From assembly GCA_015493525.1 (NCBI GenBank), contig WGCY01000049.1:62001-126000 (forward strand): a stretch of DNA of 64,000 nt, read 5' to 3'. Positions within the stretch are counted from its first letter, which is position 1. The number at the start of each line of letters is the position of its first letter. Below are positions 13,347 through 20,439 of this stretch, piece after piece. The stretch comes from Bacteroidales bacterium (lineage in GTDB: Bacteria > Bacteroidota > Bacteroidia > Bacteroidales > F082). The notes beneath the pieces are model-generated. The model worked only from the letters and a program-made list of their open reading frames with translations. It had not been told where the DNA came from and did not search any database. The position numbers and the translations under genes are program-made.

Positions 13347-15134
13347 TTAAGTATTGTGTTCGCGAATGTAGTTGACCAGGCCATGTGCCTGGAAAATACC
13401 CATGAGTTTTTCCGGTAACGGGGCAAAGGAGAAACTTTGACCATTAATTTTCAGTACACCGATTTTAAAGTCAATGGTAACAGTATCTCCGGGATGGTAG
13501 GCATCCACCGCTTCCGGAAGCAGGATAATCGGCAGCCCCTGGTTCACCGACGAACGGTAAAAAATCCGGTTCACCGATTTACAAATCACAGCCTGCACAC
13601 CGGCATAAGACAATCCCACAGCGGGATGCTCACGCGAGCTGCCACAACCAAAATTGGCACCGGCAACAATCATATCACCTTTCTGCACCCGCTCGGTAAA
13701 ATGCACATCAAAGCCTTTGAAAAGGTAGGGCATAATCTTCTCCGGTTCCGAACTCAAGACACTGTACGTCAGGTTACCGGCAAACATTTGGTCGGTATTC
13801 AGGTCGTTGACATCGGCATAGTTCCAAACCCCGTTGATGCGGCGGTCGTCATCTTCGTCAATGGTTACCGTATTGGTTTGCTGGACGGAATAGGGAAACT
13901 TCTCATCGGTTTCCAGGCCGCGCGGGTCGGTAATTTCTCCGGCCAAAGCCGAAACAGCTACCGTGGCCGGCGAAGCAAGATAAATGGACGCTTCTTTGTT
14001 GCCCATGCGACCTTTGAAATTCCGGTTGGCAGTAGAAATCACATGGTAACCATCCGCCGGAATCCCCTGTCCTGTGCCAAGGCACGGGCCGCACGAAGCC
14101 GACAGCACATTGGCCCCGGCATCCAGAAAAATGTCAATCAAACCCTCTTTCATGGCTTGCCGGTAAATTTTTTGCGAAGCCGGCACAATCACCATTTGAA
14201 AATCCTGTGGCAGTTTTTTGCCTTTCATAATTTTTGCAGCTACCTGCAAGTCTTCCAGCCGCCCGTTGGTGCAGGTACCAACCATGGCTTCCTGGAGTTT
14301 AACGCCCCGTACTTCTGCCACGGCTTTCACATTGTCCACCTGATGCGGAGCAGCCACCACAGGGAAAAGTTCCGATAAATTAATTTCTATTTCTTTGGCA
14401 TAAACGGCCTCTTCGTCAGCCCAGACACCTTTGCCGGAATAAGTATCGCCAAGATACTCTTTTAACATGTCGTCCATGGGAAAAACCGCATTCTTGGCTC
14501 CCATTTCCGAAGCCAGGTTGGCCAGTGTCATCCGCTGCGAAACGGTGAGGTTCTTCACCCCGTCGCCGTGATATTCAATGGACATGTAATCGGCACCGCG
14601 TGCACCAATCATGCCGATAATCCACAGCGAAATATCCTTGGCATACACACCCGGCTTCAGCTTGCCGTGCAGCGTAATCTTCAGCGATTCCGGAACACGA
14701 AACCATGTTTCGCCCTGATGCCACAATCCAGCGGCCTCGGTACGGTCGATACCGGCAGCAAAAGCGTTGAAAGCTCCCGCCGTACAGGTGTGGCTGTCGC
14801 TGCCAACGATGACCATGCCCGGTTTGGCATAACCGGCCATAATCTGGTGACAAATTCCTTTACCCGCATCATGAAATTTTGTAATACCCTGTTCATGAAC
14901 GATATCACGTATTTTCTGGTACTGGTTCGCCAGCTTGGCCGTGGTGGGCGGCGCGTTGTGGTCCAGCACAATAAGCAGTTGTTCAGGATATTTCACCTGT
15001 TCGCCGTTCATTTTGCGGAACGTATTGAAAATGGAAGCCGTATTGTCGTGCGACAAAATAATATCCGGTTTTTTAAAAACGATACTCCCTGTTTTGGCAC
15101 CCAGTATTTTCTCTGCAAATGTTTGTCCGCTCAT
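13347..15134 (-). CDS. Aconitase-superfamily hydratase, fused large and small (LeuC+LeuD-type) subunits
   Basis: The 595-residue protein joins a LeuC-like catalytic part and a LeuD-like swivel part in one chain. Visible motifs are GSDSHTCTAGA (SDSHT box), GTCTNGR and SCGPCLGTG (Cys ligands of the [4Fe-4S] cluster), and GANFGCGSSREHP in the small domain. It would isomerise a citrate-, isopropylmalate- or homocitrate-like substrate through dehydration and rehydration. The total length is shorter than classical AcnA or AcnB (about 850-900 residues), and no leucine-pathway genes are adjacent, so TCA-type aconitase activity is at least as likely as leucine synthesis. The ATG at 15134 (MSGQTFAEKILG) is chosen: the frame stays open upstream to 15302 but that stretch is basic, low-quality sequence unlike the family. 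Confidence 0.85.
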   Translation of the reverse strand: MSGQTFAEKILGAKTGSIVFKKPDIILSHDNTASIFNTFRKMNGEQVKYPEQLLIVLDHNAPPTTAKLANQYQKIRDIVHEQGITKFHDAGKGICHQIMAGYAKPGMVIVGSDSHTCTAGAFNAFAAGIDRTEAAGLWHQGETWFRVPESLKITLHGKLKPGVYAKDISLWIIGMIGARGADYMSIEYHGDGVKNLTVSQRMTLANLASEMGAKNAVFPMDDMLKEYLGDTYSGKGVWADEEAVYAKEIEINLSELFPVVAAPHQVDNVKAVAEVRGVKLQEAMVGTCTNGRLEDLQVAAKIMKGKKLPQDFQMVIVPASQKIYRQAMKEGLIDIFLDAGANVLSASCGPCLGTGQGIPADGYHVISTANRNFKGRMGNKEASIYLASPATVAVSALAGEITDPRGLETDEKFPYSVQQTNTVTIDEDDDRRINGVWNYADVNDLNTDQMFAGNLTYSVLSSEPEKIMPYLFKGFDVHFTERVQKGDMIVAGANFGCGSSREHPAVGLSYAGVQAVICKSVNRIFYRSSVNQGLPIILLPEAVDAYHPGDTVTIDFKIGVLKINGQSFSFAPLPEKLMGIFQAHGLVNYIREHNT

Positions 15135-15303
15135 GGCACGTGGCTTTTCATGTTTTTTTGTCAAATGATAATTCAAACAGTAATTAACCAATTTTCCAAT
15201 TTTGGCCGCAAAGATACAAGCTTTTGATACACGTGATTTTAAGAAAGGTGATTTTTTGGGTGGCTGCGGTTGCGGCCCACCAGGCCGGCACCAACCTGTC
15301 AAG

Positions 15304-15364
15304 CTGTTTGTAAACAGGATTACAAATCCTTGTTCCCTTTTAAATTCGGATTACAAATCCGAAT
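15304..15364. repeat. Cluster of three small palindromes
   Basis: Three perfect palindromes stand side by side: 15304-15317 (arm CTGTTT), 15316-15330 (AGGATT, centre ACA, AATCCT) and 15344-15364 (ATTCGGATT, centre ACA, AATCCGAAT). The stems differ while the inner TT-centre-AA is kept. They open the repeat-rich gap between the aconitase-family gene and the RAYT gene. Confidence 0.75.
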
Positions 15365-15390
15365 AAGCAAAAATTCGTGTAACTACTCCT

Positions 15391-15477
15391 CCTCCGCGTT
15401 TGAAACGCGGAGGTATTTCTATTGCTTAACACAGTACAAACATGAAAGTAAATACGCCCGCGTTGCAAACGCGGGCG
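15391..15477. repeat. Inverted pair of REP palindromes upstream of RAYT
   Basis: The first palindrome, 15391-15413, has 11-bp arms CCTCCGCGTTT round a single central G and is followed by TATTTCT. The second, 15455-15477, has 10-bp arms CGCCCGCGTT round GCA, is preceded by AAATA and is followed by AG. Read on opposite strands, both have the form AAATAC-stem-GAG, so they are two copies of one element in inverted orientation, 41 bp apart. This is the layout of a REP doublet (REPIN). Confidence 0.82.
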
Positions 15478-15555
15478 AGAAGAATAGTTTGGATAATATC
15501 GGGCAAAAAAGGTGCTGTAATAAAGTGGTTTTTAGAACTTTGCAGGCCTATTCCT

Positions 15556-15578
15556 CCTCCGCGTTTGAAACGCGGAGG
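15556..15578 (-). repeat. REP palindrome immediately upstream of RAYT
   Basis: This is an exact copy of the 23-bp palindrome at 15391-15413 (arms CCTCCGCGTTT), again followed by TAT(C/T)TCT. It ends 42 bp before the RAYT start codon, in the same orientation as 15391. RAYT genes are commonly bordered by their cognate REP sequences. Confidence 0.82.
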
Positions 15579-15620
15579 TATCTCTAAATAATATTACAAT
15601 AATTTTCATAAATTTGCTGT

Positions 15621-16178
15621 ATGTCAGGCGACAGCTATATTATTTCAGATCAAAACGGATTGTATTTCCTCACGTTTACAGTCATCGACTGGGTGGATGT
15701 TTTTACAAGAAAAGAATACAGGTTTGTTCTGACAGATTCCATGAATTATTGTGTTGAGAAAAAGGGTTTGATAATTTATGCCTGGGTAATAATGAGTAGC
15801 CATGTCCATGTTATCTGGCAGGCGAAAGAAGGGTTTAAACTCTCAGATATTATTCGGGACTTTAAAAAATTTACTGCTAAAAAGATCATATATCTGATTG
15901 AATCAGAACCGGAAAGCAGAAGGATATGGCTTTTGAGAAAATTTGAATATGCCGGACGGAGGATTAAACGTGTTTCAAAATATAAATTCTGGAAAGACAG
16001 CAACCATGCTGTACTTCTCGAACCTAATCAAGTCAATATTATCGACCAAAAACTTAATTATATCCACCAGAATCCGGTAAGGGCCTTGATAGTTGAAAAC
16101 CCGGAAGAATATATTTTCAGTTCCGCAAAAGATTACAGTGGAGAAAAAGGCTATGTCGGTATTTCTTTGTTGCGATAA
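15621..16178 (+). CDS. REP-associated tyrosine transposase (RAYT, IS200/IS605-like Y1 transposase)
   Basis: This 185-residue protein carries the Y1 HUH-nuclease signature: the two-histidine motif MSSHVHVIW (about residue 60) and a conserved C-terminal region with HQNPVRALIV and NPEEYIFSSAKDY. Early residues YFLTFTVIDWVDVF are typical of the RAYT group. RAYTs are single-copy domesticated relatives of IS200/IS605 transposases that nick single-stranded DNA through a tyrosine and are thought to spread or maintain REP palindromes. Here REP-like palindromes lie on both sides (15391-15578 and 16208-16363), as expected for a RAYT and its substrates. There are no IS ends, so the gene itself need not be mobile. 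Confidence 0.9.
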   Translation: MSGDSYIISDQNGLYFLTFTVIDWVDVFTRKEYRFVLTDSMNYCVEKKGLIIYAWVIMSSHVHVIWQAKEGFKLSDIIRDFKKFTAKKIIYLIESEPESRRIWLLRKFEYAGRRIKRVSKYKFWKDSNHAVLLEPNQVNIIDQKLNYIHQNPVRALIVENPEEYIFSSAKDYSGEKGYVGISLLR

Positions 16179-16207
16179 ACAAAATTTTCAACGCCCCACT
16201 CAATTCT

Positions 16208-16363
16208 CCTCCGCGTTTGCAACGCGGAGGTATTTCTAAAATATTTGTCTTTCATAAAGTCCATTTTTGAAAAATGAAAAATGTGAAAAATAAATACGCC
16301 CGCGTTACAAACGCGGACGAGAGTAGAACGAGTAAAAGACGAGTAGTTACAAACGCGGACGAG
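16208..16363. repeat. REP palindromes downstream of RAYT: inverted pair plus a half copy
   Basis: The palindrome at 16208-16230 (arms CCTCCGCGTT, centre TGC) is followed by TATTTCTAAA and has the same orientation as the upstream CCTCCGCG copies. The one at 16300-16316 (CCGCGTT, ACA, AACGCGG) is preceded by AAATACG and followed by ACGAG, the opposite orientation. A half copy at about 16345-16363 keeps only the right arm (GTTACAAACGCGGACGAG). Degenerate GACGAGTA repeats fill 16320-16380. The inverted pair mirrors the one at 15391-15477. Confidence 0.8.
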
Positions 16364-16402
16364 TAAAAGAGACGAGTAGAAGTCAACCTGTCGGGCTGCC
16401 CG

Positions 16403-16424
16403 CTTCGGGCGTCCACGCCCGAAG
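16403..16424. repeat. GC-rich perfect palindrome at the 3' end of the aldo/keto reductase gene
   Basis: Ten-base arms CTTCGGGCGT and ACGCCCGAAG flank a central CC. It lies 6 bp beyond the stop codon of the minus-strand reductase gene and could fold as a strong 3'-end hairpin. A sister palindrome with centre GG, and so of opposite orientation, stands at 17615-17638 on the other side of the same gene. Confidence 0.8.
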
Positions 16425-16429
16425 ATCTC

Positions 16430-17422
16430 CTATCCCTGCTCTTCCATCAACTTCATCAACTCCACAAACTTTTCCCGGGAAAGCTGTCGGATAAAATCCA
16501 TGTCCTTTTCGGAAAGCCGGGTTAAATCGCTGGTATTTAGTTTGGCCTGTTCCGGTGTTTTAATGCCCGGAATTACCGTGGATATTTCTTCATAGCCAAG
16601 GATATAGCTGAGGGCAAGTGCCGTTTTGGAAATACTTTTCTCCTCTGCCTTTTCCCAAATGGGTTCCAGGGCATCCAGTGATTTTACCAACAAAGCCGGG
16701 GGCAGACGAAAGGCACGATGGTCATCTTTGCCAAAACGGGTCTCTTTGGCAAATTTTCCGGTAAGCAAACCAAACTGCAAAGGCATGCGGGCAATGATGC
16801 CGTAACCGGCTGCATGGGCTTTTTGTATCACCGGAAGCCCTTTTTGGTTGATGATGTTGAAAACAACCTGAAAGCCGTAACCCAGATTTCTTTCCATCAG
16901 AAAAGCAGCTTCCGTTTCCGGATGGAAAGTGTTCAGTGACAAGCCCCAGTACCGGATTTTCCCTTCTTTTTGTAGTTGTTCCATAGCTTCGATACATTCA
17001 CCTTGTTGCAAGTGTTCGATGCGGGCCGAATGGAGTTGGTAGTAATCAATAGTTTCCCTTTTCAGTCGTTTCAGGCTTGCTTCGCAGGCTTTGATGATAT
17101 ATTCTTTGGAATAATCAACCGAAAATGCTCCCTGTTCATTTAACACATGTCCTGCCTTGGAAGCGATAATCACATCCGGATGGTTACCAAATGTTTTGCC
17201 TATCAGCTCTTCGGAATGGCCCAGTCCGTATATATCAGCAGTATCATAAAAGTTCACACCTTTGTCCATGGCCGTTTTCAATGCTTTCACCGACTGGCGG
17301 TCGTCCACTTCTCCCCAGCCGATGGGGATATTACCGGCCATGGCCGGCCCGCCAATGCCCCAGGCACCAAAGCCAATACTGCTGACTTTCAAGTCTGTTT
17401 TGCCGAATTTTCTGTATTCCAT
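16430..17422 (-). CDS. Aldo/keto reductase family oxidoreductase
   Basis: The 330-residue NADPH-dependent carbonyl reductase has a TIM-barrel fold. The catalytic tetrad is visible: Asp60 and Tyr65 in FYDTADIYG, Lys89 in IIASKAG, and His131 in YYQLHSAR. The start MEYRKFGKTDLKVSSIGFGAWGIGG is typical of the bacterial AKR11/12-like group that resembles L-glyceraldehyde 3-phosphate reductase and general stress proteins. The substrate is unknown. The gene stands alone, bordered on both sides by palindromic repeats, so it is probably monocistronic. Confidence 0.88.
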   Translation of the reverse strand: MEYRKFGKTDLKVSSIGFGAWGIGGPAMAGNIPIGWGEVDDRQSVKALKTAMDKGVNFYDTADIYGLGHSEELIGKTFGNHPDVIIASKAGHVLNEQGAFSVDYSKEYIIKACEASLKRLKRETIDYYQLHSARIEHLQQGECIEAMEQLQKEGKIRYWGLSLNTFHPETEAAFLMERNLGYGFQVVFNIINQKGLPVIQKAHAAGYGIIARMPLQFGLLTGKFAKETRFGKDDHRAFRLPPALLVKSLDALEPIWEKAEEKSISKTALALSYILGYEEISTVIPGIKTPEQAKLNTSDLTRLSEKDMDFIRQLSREKFVELMKLMEEQG

Positions 17423-17504
17423 GTAGTTTATTTTTTACAAATATAAAATTTTGCACAGTTCTGCTTATCCCTTTGCCAATGGGGATTCTTTACTGGCCTT
17501 TGCT

Positions 17505-17737
17505 GGTCGGGATTTGTTATCCCGACCTAAAAATGCAGCAGGATTTCAAATCCCACACCCTAAACTTCCTGATTTCAAATCAGGAAGAGCAGTATTGAAA
17601 TTGATAATCGTAATATTTCGGGCGTGGACGCCCGAAATGGGGATGCACGAAACAGCTTCATCTGCAATAAAACAAAGGAGCACCTTTCCCGTAAGAAAAG
17701 TACTCCTTAAAAATAGGTCCGCGTTGCAAACGCGGAC
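17505..17737. repeat. Palindrome cluster filling the 428-bp gap between the reductase and clpB
   Basis: No gene is seen at 17423-17850. The gap holds perfect palindromes at 17505-17527 (arm GGTCGGGAT, centre TTGTT), 17541-17553 (GGATTT, C, AAATCC), 17565-17587 (CTTCCTGATTT, C, AAATCAGGAAG), 17615-17638 (ATTTCGGGCGT, GG, ACGCCCGAAAT) and 17717-17737 (GTCCGCGTT, GCA, AACGCGGAC). The last has AAATAG before it and GAG after it, like the RAYT-linked REP copies. The region looks like a hot spot for these small elements. Confidence 0.8.
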
Positions 17738-17785
17738 GAGTAAAGAGTGGACAAGCATAAGATATTCATTCGTGGCATTACCTTC

Positions 17786-17824
17786 AAAAAAAAGCAGGAC
17801 ACCCTCACTTTGGGGATGCCCTGC
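17786..17824 (-). terminator. Rho-independent terminator of clpB
   Basis: On the minus strand a stem GCAGGGCATCCCC / GGGTGTCCTGC (17794-17824) with a short A-rich loop is followed by a run of eight T (17793-17786). It starts 27 bp after the clpB stop codon. Confidence 0.85.
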
Positions 17825-17850
17825 AAAATTTGAAATAAAGTTGTATCGGT

Positions 17851-20439
17851 TTAATTCTCAAAGACGAAATCATCGCCTTTCACCTCTACACGGATGGGTT
17901 TTTCTGCGTTAACTTTTCCGGCCAGTATCATCTTTGACAGCTCGTTCAGTACCTCACGCTGGATAACCCGTTTCAGCGGACGGGCACCAAACTGCGGGTC
18001 GTATCCCATGGCGGCCAGCTTGGTTATGGCACCCTCTGTGATTTCCAGCCGGATACCATTTTTGGCGAGCATCTGTTTCACACGGTCAAATTGTAGTTTG
18101 ACAATGCCATGAATTTCCTTCCGCGAAAGCGGTTTGAACATGATGATCTCATCAATCCGGTTCAGGAACTCCGGGCGAATGGTTTTCTTCAACAACTCAA
18201 AAACCGCATTCCGGGTTTGGTCAACTACCTGATTTTCATTGGTATCATTCATTTTACTGAAGTTTTCCTGAATCAGGTGCGAACCAATATTTGAGGTCAT
18301 AATGATGATGGTATTTTTAAAGTCCACCACACGGCCTTTGTTGTCGGTCAGCCGGCCATCATCCAATACCTGCAACAGGATATTGAACACATCGGGATGT
18401 GCTTTTTCAATTTCGTCCAGCAGCACCACCGAATAGGGTTTACGCCGCACAGCTTCGGTCAGCTGGCCACTTTCATCGTAGCCCACATAGCCGGGAGGTG
18501 CCCCCACCAGCCGCGAGACCGAATGGCGTTCCTGGTATTCAGACATGTCGATACGTACCATGGCATTTTCGTTGTCGAACAGAAACTCGGCCAGTGCTTT
18601 GGCCAGCTCCGTTTTCCCCACGCCGGTGGTACCGAGGAAGATAAACGAACCTATAGGCCGCTTTTCGTCCTGCAAGCCGGCACGGCTGCGGCGGATAGCA
18701 TCGGCAATGGCCCCAATGGCATCCTCCTGTCCCACCACGCGCCTGTGCAGTTCATCTTCGAGGTGCAGCAGTTTCTCGCGTTCGCTCTGGAGCATACGGC
18801 TCACCGGAATGCCGGTCCACTTGGAAACCACCTCCGCCACTTCCTCAGCGGTAACCTCTTCGTTAATCATGGGTTTGTCGCCCTGGGCCTCTTTTAGTTT
18901 TTCTTTCAAAGTTTCAATTTCCGATGCGGCTTTTTGAATTTTTCCGTAACGCAACTCGGCTACTTTTCCGAAATCGCCATCGCGTTCGGCACGTTCGGCT
19001 TCAAGTTTGTAATCTTCAATCGTTTTTTTGAGTTGCTGGATTTTTTCCACCACCTCTTTTTCTGCCCGCCATTTGGCTTGCAAATCGTTATGTTTTTCGC
19101 TCAGGTTGGCCAACTCCTCGTTGATACGGCTCAGCTTCCCCTTGTCTTTTTCACGTTTTATGGCTTCTTTTTCAATTTCTAATTGCCGGATACGTCTTTC
19201 CACCGTTTCCAGTTCTTCCGGCAGGGAATTGATTTCCAACCTGAGTTTGGCCGCTGATTCATCAACCAGGTCGATGGCCTTGTCGGGAAGAAAACGATCC
19301 GTAATATAGCGTTGCGACAGCTCCACTGCTGCAATGATGGCCTCATCCAGGATACGTACTTTGTGGTAAGTTTCGTAACGCTCTTTCAATCCGCGCAGGA
19401 TAGAAACAGCCGATTCGGTATCCGGTTCATCCACCATCACCAGCTGGAAACGGCGTTCAAGTGCTTTGTCCTTTTCGAAAAATTTCTGATATTCTTTCAG
19501 GGTTGTGGCTCCGATAGCCCGCAATTCCCCGCGGGCCAGGGCCGGTTTCAAAATATTGGCTGCATCCATGGCCCCTTCCGATTTCCCGGCACCCACAAGG
19601 GTATGAATTTCATCGATAAACAGGATGATTTCGCCATCGGAATCCAAAACCTCTTTTATTACTGCTTTCAACCGTTCTTCAAATTCGCCTTTGTATTTGG
19701 CCCCGGCGACGAGTGCCCCCATGTCCAGCGAAAACAATCTTTTGGTTTTTAAGTTATCCGGCACATCACCGTTCACAATTCTATGGGCAATCCCTTCGGC
19801 GATGGCCGTTTTTCCCACACCCGGCTCACCAATCAGTATTGGGTTGTTTTTGGTACGGCGCGAAAGAATCTGCAAAACGCGCCTGATTTCATCGTCCCGT
19901 CCAATCACCGGGTCCAGCTTACCACTGGCGGCCATTTCGTTCAGGTTACGGGCATAACGGTTCAATGCGTTGTACTGGTCTTCGGCACTTTGGCTGTTGA
20001 CCGTGGAGCCTTTCCGTAAATCCTTTATGGCTGTAATCAGGGCTTTTTTTGTTATCCCATTGTCTTTCAGTAGGTCAGATGCCGTACTTTTTACTTCAAG
20101 AATGGCCAGTAGCAGGTGTTCTACCGAAACAAATTCATCCTTGAATTCGGCAAGATAAGTCGATGCTTTTTGCAACACCTCGTTGGCATCGTTGGACAAA
20201 TAAGGCTGTCCGCCCGACACCTTGGGCAAAGATTCAATAATGCGGTCTACAGCTTGTGAAAAGACCGGATAATCCACATTGAGCTTTTTTAACAGAAAAG
20301 GCGTGGCATTTTCATCGACCAGCAAAATCCCTTTTAAAAGGTGAATGCTTTCGATGGCCTGCTGGCCATGTTGCACAGCCAACTCCTGCGATTTCTGTAT
20401 TGCTTCCTGCGATTTTATGGTGAATTGATTTAAGTTCAT
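17851..20439 (-). CDS. clpB: ClpB, ATP-dependent protein disaggregase
   Basis: At 862 residues this has the length of ClpB, the Hsp100 ring that works with DnaK to pull proteins out of aggregates. In order it shows the N-terminal substrate domain (residues 1-145), first AAA+ module with Walker A GEPGVGKT (about 207), the middle coiled-coil domain (about 400-530) and the second AAA+ module with [19 protein letters not shown] (about 605). The arginine-finger segment and C-terminal Clp D2 domain ([17 protein letters not shown]) complete it. The ClpP-binding IGF loop of ClpA/ClpX is not seen, as expected. It stands alone with its own terminator, a strong Shine-Dalgarno sequence and a palindrome in the divergent promoter region. 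Confidence 0.97.

Follow-up and report, generated by a model that had tools for sequence, protein, structure and literature searches.

A probable REPtron in a Bacteroidales genome and the hairpin grammar of related Bacteroidota RAYT loci

A 64,000-nucleotide stretch of a Bacteroidales genome (contig WGCY01000049.1, positions 62,001 to 126,000; here, the window) very probably contains a REPtron, that is, a single-copy RAYT gene accompanied by cognate REP hairpins which share one grammar, are in part arranged as REPINs, and which the encoded protein would cut and mobilize. Read on one strand, the REP grammar at this and related loci consists of a 5'-(G)CT foot, a 10-bp stem, and a loop that begins with T; the stem sequence is mostly free to vary between clades. 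The original prediction of a RAYT with cognate REPs in a REPIN-like layout is borne out by the repeats, the doublets and the copies across the genome, but not in its description of the locus as unusually complete: repeated hairpins (a family with at least two copies in the 600-bp flanks) are found at 59 of 80 other RAYT loci, and hairpins of this RAYT subclass are already reported in PMC6006769.

Motifs, profile match and modelled fold identify the product of the window gene as a RAYT (TnpAREP), a predicted HUH/Y1 endonuclease. The protein scores above the NCBIfam cut-off for NF047646 REP_Tyr_transpos (94.5 bits against 80) and also matches Pfam Y1_Tnp (29.9 bits, cut-off 23). Its HUH motif reads SHVH (H61, H63), the catalytic Y147 lies within YIHQNP, and the C-terminal SS corresponds to S167-S168; H61, H63, Y147, N151 and P152 are invariant in an alignment of 32 RAYTs, so that the HUH motif, the single catalytic Tyr and the YxxxNP signature are all present. 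Among PDB entries, the AF2 model (mean pLDDT 93.0) is closest in fold to 4er8, a TnpAREP bound to a REP hairpin (E 1.1e-7, TM 0.62/0.69), which likewise comes out on top by sequence profile (3.7e-8).

The genome (G000; 2.85 Mb in 53 contigs) encodes a second intact RAYT on contig C14, flanked by hairpins of another family, with GGATT stems. A truncated RAYT is located at C47:70532-70858 (L003), with no hairpins detected beside it, and three weaker Y1 transposase-like matches (L004, L005 and L006) occur in the same genome. Immediately 5' of the start of the window RAYT, TAAATTTG (15609-15616) looks like the -7 promoter box of Bacteroidota, consensus TAnnTTTG. A promoter scan around the locus returned 7 sites against 3.2 in shuffles, with a sigma-70 consensus that is of little use for Bacteroidota.

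Table 1. The RAYT gene and REP hairpins of the locus, in window coordinates
Feature	Position	Strand	Evidence
REP of the second family in this genome (stem GGATT, foot GCT), as found beside the second RAYT at G000:C14	15344..15364	-	
REP copy 1, left half of doublet 1, CT foot on + strand	15389..15418	+	palindrome and 30-nt format
REP copy 2, right half of doublet 1, AAATA end faces copy 1	15450..15479	-	palindrome and format
REP copy 3, single, closest upstream of RAYT, CT foot away from gene	15554..15583	+	palindrome and format
RAYT / TnpAREP gene, 185 aa	15621..16178	+	ORF, profile match, motifs, AF2 model, fold match
REP copy 4, left half of doublet 2	16206..16235	+	palindrome and format
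REP copy 5, right half of doublet 2, one T.G pair on CT-foot strand	16292..16321	-	format
Half REP copy, one arm lost	16345..16365	-	
Isolated REP copy, about 1.5 kb downstream of RAYT	17711..17740	-	palindrome and format

The palindromes first listed around the gene are real (Table 1). Five have perfect stems of 9-11 bp (15391-15413, 15455-15477, 15556-15578, 16208-16230 and 17717-17737), the one at 16300 has a 10-bp stem that includes one G.T pair, and the one at 16345 is a half copy. The inverted doublets 15391/15455 and 16208/16300 have their AAATA ends facing each other, as predicted, with 15556 as an extra single copy. The proposed AAATA and GAG tags fared less evenly: the ends are sharp in this genome's own copies, but AAATA is not exact (AGATA at 15556, AAATAG at 17717) and is not a tag shared across the 84 loci scored below. 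The end conserved across these loci is the one opposite AAATA: it reads (G)CT on the complementary strand and lies outermost in the doublets. AAATA was accordingly rejected as a general directional tag; it is an inner tail kept within this clade and absent from other families. An Rfam search over 15000-18000 gave 16 matches, every one below the gathering score, with microRNA models that fit the hairpin doublets at the top. A further palindrome, TTCGGGCG..CGCCCGAA, occurs in the window at 16403-16424 and 17615-17638, and also to the left of the REPIN at C15:76386.

Searched with the full 30-nt format AAATACNNCCGCGTTNNAAACGCGGNNGAG at up to three mismatches, the genome contains 25 directional copies, and the control search with the reversed pattern returned 0. 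Six copies are at the locus (17711 included) and 19 are elsewhere, so that the genome-wide count, which had been set in advance as the refuting test, came out in favour of the original prediction. The REP unit derived from 27 own copies is ARAYAC-NTCCGCGTT-RCA-AACGCGGANG-AG. At the three A positions of the tail ARAYA, A is present in 27, 27 and 26 of the 27 copies, and the opposite end AG in 27 and 26 of them, values slightly favoured by the use of the tags to orient the copies. Conservation drops outside the REP ends, mostly to 0.0-0.6 bit beyond AG and to 0.0-0.8 bit beyond the tail. With 25 directional copies and sharp tagged ends, these elements show the defining traits of REPs, that is, a short palindrome, multiple copies and one tagged end. 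By crude ORF overlap, 15 of 22 REP places are in no ORF of at least 100 aa and the other 7 are in unverified ORFs.

Nine doublets with inward AAATA ends were identified: the two in the window, two each on C15 and C27, and one each on C9, C47 and C2. A 92-bp doublet with a near-identical spacer is found at three sites, C9:117951, C15:76386 and C15:77023. The sequence beyond both outer feet of the C15:77023 doublet differs from that at the other two sites, which have about 20 more bases in common on the left, with three differences. A spacer is also common to two doublets on C27. The recurring 92-bp doublet is the trace that would be expected from dispersal of a REPIN as a unit, a movement that these sequences suggest and that other copying routes could also imitate.

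For comparison, a scan with the 32-RAYT alignment yielded at least 284 confirmed loci, the best 80 of which are the named loci used here; the record titles of 79 read as Bacteroidota lineages and one is titled Defluviitaleaceae. The same hairpin finder detected no repeated hairpin in the 600-bp flanks of 21 of the 80. Across the named loci, hairpin density up to 400 bp from the RAYT (4.60/kb) is about six times that beyond 650 bp (0.78/kb). Among oriented cases, the CT foot points outward in 61 of 79 REPs nearest upstream of the RAYT and in 67 of 82 nearest downstream; both nearest REPs are CT-outward at 49 of the 73 loci where both could be oriented (of 99; p 4.5e-14). Adjacent REP pairs within 160 bp are arranged +- (24) or -+ (26) more often than ++ (10) or -- (9), at spacings of mainly 89-130 for +- and mainly 38-62 for -+. 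The window departs from the simple bracket, because the copy at 15554 points outward upstream and the nearest downstream copy, at 16206, points the other way; insertion of a doublet within an older bracket made of 15554 and the half copy at 16345 would explain this departure. Loci that represent the same place or overlap were dropped from the bracketing, polarity and pairing counts (L093, the same site as L032; L060 and L060b, overlapping L036). At G037:C3:339700-346200 (L060), two RAYT copies about 2.9 kb apart have similar flanking hairpins, possibly through tandem duplication.

The hairpin grammar was scored at 84 of 125 aligned RAYT loci from both sets, those with a repeated hairpin that could be oriented by the loop alone (T first, not A last); loops with T first and A last, or shorter than 3, including the TGA loops of 15391 and 15556, were omitted from loop-based counts. 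In a fixed 10-bp register, T occupies position -11 at 80 of the 84 loci (1.65 bits; the next highest value outside the loop is 1.11), and after collapse to 56 distinct 8-nt arms it does so in 52, compared with 12 of 56 on the mirror strand. Without the repeat filter, T is at -11 in 270 of 358 oriented hairpins near a RAYT versus 37 of 85 far from one, a share that still exceeds the base rate of 29%. The rest of the foot varies, with CT at 57, TT at 11 and AT at 11 of the 84 loci and GCT at 38. In the 10-bp register the prevailing feet are NCT and GTT, unlike the GT[AG]G foot of GTAG-type REPs. Watson-Crick pairing falls from 86% at pair 10 to 17% at pair 11 (250 copies). The three stem positions adjoining the loop show a bias (0.63-1.11 bits), and the remaining stem is at 0.25-0.55.

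At the named loci, 82 of 167 copies have a CT foot bordering their longest stem, as do 96 of 127 in the relatives, compared with 21 of 97 far controls. Orientation by the CT foot agrees with loop polarity in 70 v 6 copies at the named loci and 78 v 3 in the relatives (far controls, 8 v 4), and G.T is favoured over A.C among mismatches (17 v 4 and 20 v 2 loci). Since a G.T pair is possible on one strand only, the foot, loop and wobble asymmetries concur on the hairpin strand. Consistently, the wobble-strand pattern of one REP family, searched with a free loop, has 42 sites in 9 of 60 genomes, all 42 with a T-first loop. Among the own copies of the GGATT family in the stretches covered, 32 of 46 were oriented by the loop, with T at -11 in 20 of the 32 and on the mirror strand in 6, under a loose pattern that includes a second, symmetric hairpin type. 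This symmetric hairpin (GGGGATT-TSA-AATCCCC) often accompanies GGATT units, about 30 bp away from their REP (L019 661-830, L022 729-792, L023 662-692), and is possibly the centre of a three-hairpin REPIN.

Position 132 of the RAYT, near the conserved W124, N128 and H129, correlates with the CT versus TT foot (0.352, against a 95% permutation level of 0.319), but with relatedness uncontrolled this is not put forward as a finding. Guide contacts of the E. coli protein were placed around W94 by Quentin et al. 2018 (PMC6006769), and we infer that the two regions correspond.

The stems follow the identity of the neighbouring RAYT, and differ by clade and between paralogs. REP arm similarity is 0.35 at 40-45% RAYT identity and 0.93 above 80%, with a Spearman correlation between the two of 0.398 that none of 2000 permutations reached. 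Among 17 within-genome paralog pairs, 16 (0.44-0.52 identity) have a best arm similarity of 0.00-0.62, and the arms of the one close pair (0.83 identity) are identical. The original proposal of one Bacteroidota-specific sequence is contradicted by these differences. Excluded from the arm-similarity and foot counts were L093, L060, L036, L105 (no repeated hairpin) and RAYTs with internal stops; the broken RAYTs of L071, L079 and L082 were left out as proteins.

The same association was assessed across 60 genomes, G000 included, 32 of which have a RAYT match. The five with a full-length RAYT of this clade contain 23, 8, 24, 7 and 2 window-type REPs, two that carry only RAYT fragments contain 13 and 3, and the other 53 have a mean of 0.47, with 40 zeros (p 8e-6; this and all other p-values given here are optimistic, the loci being related). 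Subtraction of copies within 2 kb of the RAYT leaves 17, 5, 15, 4 and 0, the fifth set to 0 because its places were unlisted (p 4e-4), and a comparison of off-locus REPs against 29 genomes of the family gives p 4e-3; ten of the 15 off-locus REPs in G012 form one array. The expected scarcity in RAYT-less relatives thus holds on average but not in every genome: those of the same genus without this RAYT have 1, 2, 3, 2, 1, 1, 0 and 6 REPs, the 6 being in G011. G013 has 7 wobble-type REPs and no RAYT match. An independent family, GCGTAGCG, is confined to G015 and G029, the two of the 60 genomes with the corresponding RAYT, and its copies are mainly at the RAYT itself (4 of 6 and 5 of 5).

The GGATT pattern, which also hits the wobble-family core, is a weak marker of its RAYT. 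It has 81, 61, 48 and 39 copies in four genomes that carry the matching RAYT, and only 15, 13 and 11 in G035, G020 and G008 despite a matching RAYT; in G002, G005, G026 and G012 the pattern occurs 30, 24, 20 and 19 times, with no matching RAYT identified. Losses, assembly gaps or loose patterns may account for these uneven counts and for REPs in genomes that lack a matching RAYT. The imperfect fit between GGATT counts and RAYT presence slightly lowers our confidence in the REPtron reading and in the more speculative one given below. A generic loop pattern, GNTTNCAAANC, was discarded as a REP counter, being too loose in the window's own genome (203/190 versus 72/77 in the control); that search led to the second hairpin family, at C14.

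REPs that persist in genomes without a matching RAYT, together with the fragmented RAYTs common among the relatives and copy numbers in the tens, would fit old, immobile relics in which RAYT and REP match through shared vertical descent only. We consider this unlikely, given that shared descent of a genome leaves unexplained the different REPs of its paralogous RAYTs, that the near-identical doublets on C9 and C15 indicate copying, and that stems which change in sequence retain their complementarity.

It is also improbable that the hairpins serve mainly to insulate the RAYT gene, as transcription terminators or as structures at mRNA 3' ends, their association with the RAYT being secondary. A scan for terminator-like sites over 15200-16450 did find 6, against a shuffle mean of 1.1, which cover four REPs, all on the CT-foot strand, and bracketing REPs are mostly oriented such that a T-rich tail would halt transcription entering the RAYT gene. 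Terminators, however, require neither an exact foot T at -11 nor a clade-specific stem nor a loop polarity that holds across genera; moreover, many hairpin families lack T-rich tails, the REP family tracks RAYT identity, and the 92-bp doublet recurs in its entirety. An ordinary IS200/IS605-like insertion sequence with the palindromes as terminal hairpins would have the same HUH/Y1 fold (the IS608 and ISDra2 transposases are among the further fold matches) and inverted hairpins often bracket RAYTs, but is very unlikely considering that the best fold match is TnpAREP, that the IS200 model NF033573 scores 23.5, below its cut-off of 55, that hairpins are also found apart from any RAYT, and that the genome has a single copy of this RAYT, the next being 53% identical, rather than multiple near-identical transposases.

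As a REPtron, the locus belongs to a known kind, and what is newly measured is its grammar: the foot, stem length, loop, strand polarity, bracketing and the matching of stem to RAYT. By sequence, the window RAYT fits TnpAY1 subclass 2.6 (Bertels RAYT group 5). Quentin et al. 2018 (PMC6006769) state that every tnpAREP is paired with a REP family of its own and that subclass 2.6 comprises mostly Bacteroidetes RAYTs with atypical hairpins that lack GT[AG]G and were found by manual inspection. The features described there for the subclass and seen here include the Bacteroidetes origin, a length of about 180 aa (listed as about 179; 185 in the window), YIH[QN]NP and the SS motif, as well as few, diverged copies per genome and flanking non-GTAG hairpins that recur elsewhere in the genome. 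The HUH motif listed for the subclass in PMC6006769 is NH[LIV]H and that of the window is SHVH, a minor departure in which both catalytic His are kept; S is also present in L041 and L058, L075 has QHKH, and the rest of the aligned RAYTs have NH.H. No hairpin consensus for subclass 2.6 was found in the text of PMC6006769, whose supplementary table may list the hairpins. A literature search, which covered parts of PMC3733652, PMC2817692 and PMC12306157 among others, returned no consensus for the hairpins of Bacteroidota group 5.

The closest characterized systems differ in foot and stem. Stenotrophomonas REPtron Sm (group 3; PMC8266576) resembles the present REPs in its short perfect palindrome and 3-nt loop, but has a GTAG foot and an 8-bp stem instead of the (G)CT foot and 10-bp stem; cutting in that system depends on foot and loop (PMC8266576). 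E. coli TnpAREP (group 2, subclass 2.2; 4er8) shares the HUH/Y1 fold, hairpin substrates, inverted REP pairs and a foot 5' of the stem, whereas E. coli REPs have a GTAG foot and a bulged stem, and those described here a (G)CT foot and a 10-bp stem without a bulge. The Pseudomonas REPINs of Bertels and Rainey, from 2011, reportedly are inverted REP doublets that recur as units, with tags at the outer ends, and are said to reach hundreds of copies; here the copies number in the tens, and both the tag and the RAYT group are different.

Judging from the biochemistry of TnpAREP and of IS608/ISDra2, the RAYT would bind the single-stranded hairpin on the CT-foot strand and would read the foot, the loop and the clade-specific stem. 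It may then cut beside the hairpin and join the ends, by which REPIN doublets would be copied or moved. The (G)CT foot would serve as the guide, as GTAG does for other RAYTs. Cleavage by the TnpAREP of E. coli and of Stenotrophomonas takes place at a CT next to the REP, and in a Marinomonas REP an altered GTAG foot shifted the cut site by cross-complementarity, although attempts at this in E. coli and Stenotrophomonas failed (PMC8266576). Given that the CT foot lies at the same place as the GTAG-type guide, a cut between A and G would be chosen by the Marinomonas cross-complementarity logic; the predicted cut is thus between A and G for CT feet, and between A and A for GTT feet.

More speculatively, and as something possible rather than probable, Bacteroidota group 5 RAYTs may be a family of naturally programmable single-strand endonucleases. 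In such enzymes, a constant foot and loop, 11 nt apart, would act as guide and register, and the swappable stem would be a private address for each paralog, allowing parallel REPIN populations without cross-talk; the foot would set the cut, between A and G or between A and A. A RAYT with its nearest outward-facing REPs would then be the autonomous parent, and REPINs its internal-deletion derivatives.

In the literature surveyed, the specificity of RAYTs, which are domesticated transposases, is established for the GTAG-type REPs of Proteobacteria only. The grammar described here allows annotation of Bacteroidota REPs that GTAG-based searches would miss. The loci also offer many naturally matched enzymes and substrates in which foot and loop are nearly constant and the stem varies, so that recognition of its own REPs by each RAYT becomes directly testable.
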